Part shown: positions 1,101 to 15,746 of the stretch, piece after piece
How positions within the stretch are numbered: the first letter of the stretch is position 1
Layout of the letters: every line of letters starts with the position of its first letter
NCBI RefSeq assembly: GCF_964204865.1
Contig: NC_135251.1
Span: 18,414,001-18,478,000 of the forward strand
DNA: 64,000 bases
Reading direction: 5' to 3'
Source of the DNA: Styela clava
Lineage: Eukaryota; Chordata; Ascidiacea; Stolidobranchia; Styelidae
Program-made: the position numbers and the translations under genes
The notes under the pieces: model-generated
The model's input: only the letters and a program-made list of their open reading frames with translations
Told to the model about the DNA's origin: nothing
Databases searched by the model: none

Positions 1101-4100
1101 TCATTTCTTTTCTTCGAAATTAGGATAAATTTCGAACGACTTCATGTAGTTGCAGATTGCAGTATGACAGAATTTGTATTGTTCCTGCAATTATCATATA
1201 TTTTGTTACTCTATAGTTTTCACGATAAAAGAGTTCAAAGGAAAGTAGATATGAGTAAAAGCGAATACACGAAGATTAGAATCCCTACTATTAAACATAC
1301 GCGTCTGCATATAAATATAAAAATTACGGGGGAAAAAATCGTACACTTGTTACATAAAAACTAATTCAATTTGAGCAATCGGAATACCAGCATTGCGAGT
1401 ATTTTATACTGACATAATCTAAGGTCATATATAATGAGTGATGGTATACGATAACCAGGGATAAAACTGAAAGTTTATAACAAAGTTAATTAGTTAGATG
1501 TTTATAATATTCTTTTGAGATCTATCTAGAAATAACATTTAGAATCATTTACCAACGTCTTAACCATTCCTTGTCTGCAATCACGCAAATCTTTTACTGC
1601 GCGGAAAACATCAACTTTATTCTCATATTTCAATCTCTCTATCAAATTTGAGATTGCGCAAAATGCTCCAGTTCGTCCAGCACCATCGCTATAAATATAC
1701 GTCAAAATGGATGTTTAATGTTTGTAACATTATCACTTATCAATTGAAAATTGGCATGTATAAAAATTTATACTAAATTACGTACGTGCAGTGAATAAGA
1801 CAAGCTGATCCCCGAACACCTCTTGTATTTCTCTGCATCTCCCCAATAATATCCAATACAATGCTACCATCTTCTGGACATTGTTCATTACTCCAGTCAG
1901 AATATTGTATTTGTGTAACACGAGTCTGAAATAATAAAATAATCGGATGTTTGGTAAAAATTTTGAACTGTATGTTCGCCTTGATTTGTTTGTTTTGCAA
2001 TATCTAAATTTAGCACTTAACTACGCAAACCTTGCTAGTATCGAAGTTAAAACATGCGTTGAAAATTAGTTTTAATATCAACAATGTTTACCTCCTGGTT
2101 TCTCTGAGGACTTTAAAAAATCTATGAGATATCGATCCATTTATATTCTCTCCCAGCAAGGTAACACTAACGTTATCTATTCTTAACGGTTCGCAAAACC
2201 TTTGTGGCCAATATTGAATGCACTCCTGTGTATAGAAGCAAAAAGATTGTATTTCATTGAACAATGTCATTATTTACTATAGATGTTTTCAAAATTATAA
2301 TTTAGTTCTATGAAGATGATAGGCCTATAATATATAACAACAAATAATAACATAACAAGCTATACTTTAAAAAATGTTATGCTTTTATAAGTAAACATCG
2401 GTTACATTTTATGGTGGGATAGTGACCAGATGAAAGTTGTCCAGCGATTAGATCACTCCTTGCAATATAGACTCCACTCATCTTATACCATAGATCAGGG
2501 TGGTCCAGACCGCAGAACAAATTTAGCTTATACTTAACCATTGGCAGATATTTGTATTTATTGGCAGACCATTTTTGAGGTATTTTTATACAATTCCAAC
2601 TTGGAATAGCCTCTTCCCTAATCCCGACGTCGAGATTGATGTTTGTTAAAATCCCGGAATTTCAATGTTATATCTATAAACCTCAAGACGGTGCCAATAT
2701 GGGAATAACTTCCTGTGATCGTAACAAGGAGAATGCATTGTCTTGTGCAACAATGCCGATAAGATGAGCCGCGCAAGTAACTGCTCATTTGGAGAGACGC
2801 TTTGTGCCTTCATTTTAGTAAAAACACTCCTCTATTTTCAAGCGTTGGCCATGTGACAGCAGTGACAAATCGCAGAGCTTACTTAGCGCCGCGCGATCCA
2901 AACATTTTTTAGCTTGGTCTGGAGTCCCAATTTAGACGGACATGGTTGCTCATTGACGATAGTACCAAGCCTGATCACTCTACATGTAATAAAATTAGTC
3001 GAATATGACAATTCATCATACAATGAATGTAATAAAAAAAAGTGACCAAGCTAAACTGGGAGGAAACGTATTTCCTTACCCCCAACAACGTTATACCACA
3101 GTGTCTGGTGTGTTTTCAAATAATATCTGTCACAAAAGAATGTAATTTTAAGCGACATTACAAAACCAAACACCAGAAAAAATACCACGGTATTTCTCGG
3201 GATGCAATTTTAAATACCTAAAGGCTTTTAATAACTGCCCTAAAAACTATAAATATATTTAAAGGGAGTAAACTGGAGGTGTTTGATCACTTTTGGGTTT
3301 TCTCCGACTGCGGCCATCGAGACATCCTCAAAAGTTTTTGCGGCCCGCCAACCTCGCAATCTTGAACCACCCTGCCATAGATTATTCTGCGCTTGTATCG
3401 CAAGTCAGGATTTCACTGGGAACAATTTTTAAAAATTATAATATTAGTTGGGATTCTAGCCGCTCGAAGCTTCAGATATCAACAGCATTCATGAAGCCGA
3501 AACGTTGAAATGATTATCCTTGATTACACCGAATCCACGGTGGTAACTAATTGAGAGCTCATTCAATATTGTTACATTATTACGTTTTACTCAATTCTTT
3601 CAACTAAAAGATCCTACGTTATCTTCAATCAAACATTGTTGACTGACATAATTAGGCAGTCATTTACTCGAATTTACCTCAGCACGTGCAAGCATGACAA
3701 TAGTATTAACTCTATTATCCAATACAGATCTCCAAAAGAATGAAATTCCTTCGTTCATCGGTGTTTGTGCTGCAATCATACTAGTATTTTCGTCGTATGT
3801 CTGAGACAAAGAGGCATTGTATGAAGATATGTTAAAAATTATGAGATCACAGTTGCAAGACAAATAATAATCAATATCTGTGATGTCTTACCTCTACCCA
3901 CGATGCATTTACATATGGTACACTTGTTTCATTGTTGCACATTACCAGAACAACAGCATTATGATCATCTGATAAAAAAAAATCAGAAATGAAGATATTT
4001 TATGAGATGCAATAAAAAAACAAAATTATAATATTTAGATCAACTCACAAGGAATCACATCATCTGATAAATTGAATACTTTATTTTCATAACGTTTTCC

Positions 4101-15746: not shown

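Follow-up and report, generated by a model that had tools for sequence, protein, structure and literature searches.

The stretch of DNA analysed here, referred to as the window, spans 64 kb (C2:18414001-18478000 of genome G000, which comprises 376.6 Mb in 379 contigs) and carries on its minus strand a 30-exon gene resembling those of receptor phosphatases, running from 15746 to 1101. Between the start ATG at 15746 and the terminal TGA at 1101 lie, in order, a signal peptide, a C-type lectin domain (CTLD), an immunoglobulin (Ig) domain, an FN3 region, a probable transmembrane (TM) exon and two phosphatase (PTP) domains, D1 and D2. The signal peptide was assigned by eye and by hydrophobicity, whereas the lectin, Ig, FN3 and phosphatase domains were identified with Pfam: Lectin_C at 1.3e-9 (39.1 bits against a cut-off of 22.6), I-set at 2.7e-12, fn3 at 3.8e-6 with two fn3 stretches, and Y_phosphatase at 1.6e-71 for D1 and at 1.7e-24 and 1.8e-27 for the two halves of D2. 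These matches confirm the domain order and strand given in a preliminary description of the window, and the signal peptide and extracellular domains (CTLD, Ig and FN3) are those of a receptor phosphatase. Within the 64 kb, local CTLD, Ig, PTP and membrane-proximal profiles match this gene alone (E ≤0.1), and they give no matches in a single simple base shuffle of the window; the profiles were built partly from the gene itself, so that matches to their own source arise by construction, and the support for its domains that is independent of them, all of it at the level of sequence, is that from Pfam and from the paralogues described below. All 29 introns have GT-AG borders, and in codon-usage scoring the true frame came top for 21 of the 29 exons scored (all but the TM exon), by margins that were mostly small.

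The signal peptide is encoded by exon 1 (15689-15746), which ends in phase 1. Three exons make up the CTLD: part a in exon 2 (15195-15354; entered in phase 1 and left in phase 2, and at 160 nt like exon CTLD2a of a relative termed gene E), part b in exon 3 (14609-14704; 71% identity over 31 residues to a paralogue on contig C3) and part c in exon 4 (14296-14408; ending in phase 1). Exon 5 (12135-12425), in phase 1 on both sides, holds the I-set Ig domain. The FN3 region occupies exons 6 (11741-11843) and 7 (10862-10982), assigned by Pfam and by match to the C3 paralogue, and exons 8 (10565-10747) and 9 (10071-10278), assigned by the paralogue match, as were the membrane-proximal exons 10 (8579-8681), 11 (8165-8296), 12 (7619-7768) and 13 (7279-7364), the last of which ends in phase 1. 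The probable TM exon 14 (6911-7001; phase 1 in, phase 2 out) contains an in-frame TAA at 6960-6958 and is followed by exon 15 (6488-6552), which encodes a basic juxtamembrane segment with RRMKPRK, and by exon 16 (6276-6385), where the cytoplasmic region starts. D1 extends over exons 17 (5865-5961), 18 (5633-5697), 19 (5333-5467), 20 (5133-5264), 21 (4843-4994), 22 (4585-4720) and 23 (4300-4403); it has the WPD loop, TWPDHDIP, in exon 21 and the HCxxGxxR active-site signature across the join of exons 21 and 22, with an in-frame TAG (4379-4377) later, in exon 23, before the end of the domain. D2 is encoded by exons 24 (4049-4179), 25 (3892-3968), 26 (3678-3800), 27 (2092-2225), 28 (1786-1925) and 29 (1553-1688), with the signature HCTDGAGRTG across the 28/29 join. 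Exon 27 leaves in phase 2 and exon 28 is read from phase 0, which constitutes a frame break; the homologous join of gene E is 0/0. At the WPD position D2 reads WSN, and the D2 of gene E reads WAS. Exon 30 (1101-1184) contains the C-terminus and the TGA.

Several other features lie in and around this gene. A tandem duplication, 15447-16278 and 16638-17462 (92.7% identical), has produced a second copy of exon 1, with the same signal-peptide residues and 2 changes in 58 nt, together with the first part of exon 2; this copy could provide a second promoter and first exon. A hAT-like element of 879 nt (3374-2496), flanked by a perfect 8-bp repeat, ATCTATGG, sits in the intron separating exon 26 from exon 27, and its portion 3011-3374 recurs inverted at 24351-24738. 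Two alpha/beta hydrolase copies, which we take to be BPHL-like, are found in the window: that at 25579-26403 is open, unlike that at 31098-31941, whose two open frames overlap but are out of register with each other and which could reflect a frame break or an assembly indel. An open frame at 27396-29048 contains a Myb_DNA-bind_7 domain and is presumably BDP1, a single open frame of 1,055 residues at 37223-40387 matches DUF4590 (3e-44) and, near residue 824, LRR_6 (9.3e-9), and plus-strand exons with Sushi and somatomedin B domains at 58749-62307 belong to one or more extracellular genes. Scans of the window for tRNA genes and Rfam families found nothing, and an NCBIfam search returned no useful name. 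No relative was found in a scan of viral contigs with the D1 of the window gene, nor did 4.2 kb of the gene match anything in phage records.

The CTLD of the window gene matches 123 distinct PDB sequences at E ≤0.01, the best being PLA2R and LY75. It keeps the outer (C1-C4) cysteines and a WIGL-like strand, with the readings WIGA, SFCENS and IICIK. Sugar-binding CTLDs carry EPN or QPD, plus WND, plus the inner (C2-C3) cysteine pair. The window CTLD reads EPG and LSD at the calcium-site motifs and the inner pair is absent, and for this reason carbohydrate recognition, which the preliminary description had entertained, is not predicted for this domain. Its closest counterpart is CTLD2 of gene E, with 28.7% identity over 129 aligned residues and the same intron phases, 1-2-2-1. 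Since that domain has EPN, WAD and both inner cysteines, its sequence makes sugar binding more plausible in some relatives than in the window CTLD.

Exon 14 was absent from the preliminary description and was found here, stop-bearing, so the notion that no TM exon exists is overturned. The exon fits phase 1 on its left and phase 2 on its right and leads into the basic exon with RRMKPRK; in gene E an unbroken TM peptide, TLVIIIIVVCVVIVGFVIIGIYCYRR, lies between the homologous membrane-proximal and D1 exons, at the position matching exon 14. By hydrophobicity alone the assignment would be weak, since 33 TM-like AG..GT stretches carrying one stop or none occur in the 9,664 nt of other introns of the gene that were searched, and the identification of exon 14 as the probable TM exon rests on its position and on both phases. 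A TM segment supplied by an upstream extension of exon 13 was also considered and rejected: the extension is mostly intron, and no acceptor was seen that opens it. The single TM helix of a receptor is thus interrupted in the window gene, whose probable TM exon carries the in-frame TAA.

The frames of the gene had been described as joining continuously, which does not hold. The frame is kept across 28 of the 29 exon joins, an agreement that is partly built in because the borders were chosen by homology and open frame, and the chain contains three lesions: the TAA in the TM exon, the TAG in D1 (exon 23) and the frame break between exons 27 and 28. All three lie in or after the TM exon, and the 601 codons of exons 1-13 contain no stop or other lesion. 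In gene E the homologue of exon 23 has an open frame and the homologous D2 join is in phase (0/0), so that the TAG and the frame break are true departures. Two stops and a frame break contradict the reading of the window copy as an intact receptor. Reassignment of stop codons was rejected as an explanation, given that other genes of the window need no read-through (the 1,055-codon frame is open in the standard code).

Leaving the TM exon aside, the 1,207 codons contain a single stop. A stop would arise from about 5.2% of the single changes possible in the sequence of this gene, so that one is expected at approximately 0.5% neutral change, and if the gene is a pseudogene it is therefore a young one. 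One lesion in each of the TM exon, D1 and D2, against open frames everywhere else, favours recent inactivation, and judged by its sequence the window copy is most likely a short member (CTLD-Ig-FN3-TM-PTP-PTP) of its family that was inactivated recently. The same scarcity of stops, along with canonical splice sites throughout and the frame change in another gene of the window (31098-31941), would also be expected if the gene were functional and its stops and frame break were assembly errors or marked a null allele of a polymorphic gene. We consider this rather unlikely, albeit with a real chance of being right, as it has to accommodate two stop codons and a frame break, each a separate lesion, in a window whose other long frames used here are open, though these were picked for their openness. 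The confinement of all lesions to the TM exon and the region beyond it, after 601 lesion-free codons, raises another alternative, namely that, through the stop in the TM exon, the window copy yields a CTLD-Ig-FN3 protein that is secreted and acts as a soluble decoy of its membrane-bound relatives. By codon-count arithmetic, chance alone places three lesions in that half about 1 time in 7, and a stop at this distance ahead of the last exon usually triggers mRNA decay, so we regard the decoy as distinctly improbable and continue to prefer recent inactivation.

The proposal that the CTLD is fused to Ig, FN3 and phosphatase exons in one gene is well supported, by the C3 paralogue and by five genes of an array on C2. 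At the join between the CTLD and the Ig domain (14296 to 12425) phase 1 meets phase 1. CTLD- and Ig-type modules are typically bounded by phase-1 introns, so the matching of phases at this join is weak evidence for fusion. Intron 4, which separates the two modules, is long (1,870 nt), and this length, taken with the low weight of the phases, would suit lectin exons that form a separate gene upstream of an Ig-FN3-PTP gene. However, 1,298 nt of the intron (12469-13766) are an inserted element, hAT-like in name on the assumption that its end motifs are diagnostic, with an 8-bp flanking repeat GGCTAGTG/GGCTTGTG (7 of 8 positions alike); without the element and one repeat copy the intron measures 564 nt. 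An alternative first exon for an Ig-FN3-PTP gene was sought in intron 4 and rejected: the most hydrophobic candidate lies inside the hAT-like element and has a poor donor (5/9). Against separate genes there are also the C3 paralogue, which repeats the order of CTLD and then Ig with alike dS, and genes A and E of the array, in which a CTLD lies between Ig and FN3 exons. Two separate genes are accordingly very improbable.

In the C3 paralogue (C3:17988001-17998000, plus strand), exons 3-13 of the window gene are matched in order with 47-76% identity, the lowest row (47%) continuing into an intron, and the exon order is CTLD parts b and c, Ig, FN3 and membrane-proximal. The listed PTP profile matches start at C3:18000126, 2.1 kb past the fetched stretch. 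The 1.16 kb upstream of part b yielded neither part a of the CTLD nor the signal peptide, both of which may lie further upstream or be absent. With residues in the overlapping ends of three tblastn rows left out, the comparison of the window gene with this paralogue gives dS 0.65 and dN/dS 0.43 for the CTLD (65 codons), dS 0.55 and dN/dS 0.49 for Ig (95 codons), and dS 0.66 and dN/dS 0.34 for the FN3 region (351 codons). Such alike divergence of the three coding sequences is what would be expected of one co-inherited, constrained gene.

The array occupies C2:11250001-11474700 and consists of five minus-strand genes, A, B, D, E and F. Their general order is CTLD and EGF modules, a single-exon CTLD, EGF, Ig, Ig, CTLD, FN3, PTP and PTP, with the genes varying in the number of CTLD and EGF matches. 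Two PTP-bearing fragments lie between genes, and the six plus-strand matches in the stretch all have E >0.2. Gene E was modelled as a chain of 40 exons with no stops; two joins (EGF1-IgL1 and FN1b-FN2a) have no in-phase chaining, and the model lacks a first exon, a signal peptide and a juxtamembrane exon, none of which was found. Its spliced CTLD1-4 match Pfam at 3.3e-17, 3e-16, 8.2e-12 and 7.4e-10, its D1 and D2 pass Pfam, and one EGF falls below the cut-offs of its family. Gene E and the window gene share 47.8% identity in D1 (274 aligned), 57.5% (113) and 35.1% (148) in two parts of D2, 26.4% in the FN3 region (375 aligned) and 29.9% in Ig (77 aligned). In gene A, pieces match Lectin_C (1.2e-8), I-set (7.5e-14) and EGF (1.6e-5), four short CTLD pieces match Lectin_C below the cut-off and two match nothing relevant. 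Most of its splice borders are phase 1 where assignable, with one EGF donor in phase 0, and no acceptor was found for several modules. The CTLD that lies between the Ig and FN3 exons of genes A and E is CTLD4. Both genes also contain a repeated Ig-like module (IgL1, IgL2) between the EGF and Ig modules; IgL1 of gene A matches only weak, unrelated Pfam families, and at 0.01 that of gene E matches none.

Using the best plus-direction tblastn match per exon (E ≤1e-3), gene E is collinear with gene B over 40 of 40 exons and with gene A over 39 of 40, with no stops in the matches of either. It matches gene D at 37 of 40 exons, where CTLD1 is missing and the best hits of two neighbouring exons stand in the wrong order. 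Divergence is uneven among modules: between E and B, dS is 0.09 in FN3 and 1.98 in CTLD3, and between E and A it is 0.35 in CTLD3 with D1 and D2 saturated, each value being rough by itself because of the best-hit matching and the short modules. This unevenness suggests module exchange between neighbouring genes, or gene conversion, and exchange of this kind would be a possible source of receptor diversity. Where computable, dN/dS in the array ranges from 0.15 to 0.59, except for 0.89 in the Ig of the E-D pair, and hence gives no general sign of positive selection.

The genome contains at least 152 matches to PF00102. Grouped within 9.5 kb and by strand, the 150 matches listed form 49 loci, of which 41 have two or more matches; only the best candidates were scored. 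One receptor phosphatase (C10:12.469 Mb), PTPRA/E-like in our reading, has no CTLD, Ig, EGF or Ig-like match (E ≤0.1) in the 30 kb upstream of its D1 exon. Upstream of another PTP locus, C1:26301001-26311000 yielded the membrane-proximal module only, so that a CTLD is not shown for every locus of the family.

Among known receptor phosphatases, the LAR-type (R2A) and PTPRA/E-type (R4) share tandem PTP domains with the window gene, and the LAR-type also shares Ig and FN3 domains outside the membrane. LAR-type receptors have three Ig domains followed by four to nine FN3 domains, an architecture from which the window gene departs with one Ig, two fn3 stretches and one CTLD. By best PDB chain scores, its D1 is closest to PTPRS/PTPRF and its D2 to PTPRA/PTPRE. 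To our knowledge neither type has a CTLD; the window gene combines one with a single Ig domain, and the array genes add EGF modules and up to four CTLDs, unlike either type.

The author of the preliminary description knew of no CTLD in a receptor phosphatase. The combination is rare in the literature searched (full text), but there is one direct precedent, a predicted Fugu protein named PTP-GMC1, which we take to be the name of the mesangial phosphatase, PTPRQ. It is listed among CTLD-containing proteins (Zelensky and Gready 2004, PMC514892) and resembles the window family in being a phosphatase among such proteins. The survey puts it in an unclassified group whose gene predictions its authors call the lowest in quality, and the passages concerned give no CTLD-Ig-FN3-PTP-PTP order such as that of the window gene (PMC514892). 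An array of multi-CTLD receptor phosphatases was not met in the literature that the search covered. In PTPRG and PTPRZ (R5), described as carbonic-anhydrase/fn3/Y_phosphatase pairs (PMC11788884), a globular domain and FN3 also lie outside and PTP inside, with a carbonic-anhydrase-like domain where the window gene has its CTLD. The nearest functional parallel is SudRes1 of the snail Biomphalaria sudanica, where clustered paralogous receptor phosphatases are tied to schistosome resistance (PMC12297450). Clusters, tandem PTP domains and recognition ectodomains are common to it and the window family, although the SudRes1 ectodomain consists of multiple EGF domains and a galactose-binding-like domain rather than of CTLD, Ig and FN3 (PMC12297450).

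With a probability of roughly three in four, we take the locus to be a member of a lineage-expanded family of CTLD-bearing receptor phosphatases, of which the window copy is a short and probably decayed representative. The evidence for the family consists of exon structure, domain order, paralogue collinearity and catalytic motifs, and in the window gene the CTLD exons precede Ig-FN3-TM-PTP-PTP on the same strand, in an arrangement collinear with its paralogues. Such a family may have arisen by the shuffling of phase-1-bounded modules (CTLD, Ig and EGF) ahead of an FN3-TM-PTP-PTP core. Intact members would be single-pass receptors at the cell surface, with CTLDs and Ig domains that may bind a ligand, either glycan or protein, and binding could alter the clustering or position of the receptor. 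D1, in which the catalytic motifs are kept, would then strip phosphate from tyrosines near the membrane, and D2, with WSN in the window gene and WAS in gene E in place of the WPD of active domains, would be mainly regulatory.

In animals, the usual route from lectin recognition to a phosphatase is an ITIM tail that recruits SHP enzymes. We tentatively suggest, as something possible rather than probable, that the clustered and expanding lectin-phosphatases act as recognition receptors for self, microbe or symbiont without ITIM-type adaptors, that they diversify as neighbouring genes swap CTLD and Ig modules, and that damaged copies, the window copy among them, provide soluble forms or spare sequence. 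If so, ligand binding would be coupled directly to the removal of phosphotyrosine. Such receptors would lend themselves to testing, as the ligand-binding modules and the enzyme lie in one protein, and tandem arrays of receptors that unite lectin and phosphatase in one molecule would solve inhibitory recognition in another way.
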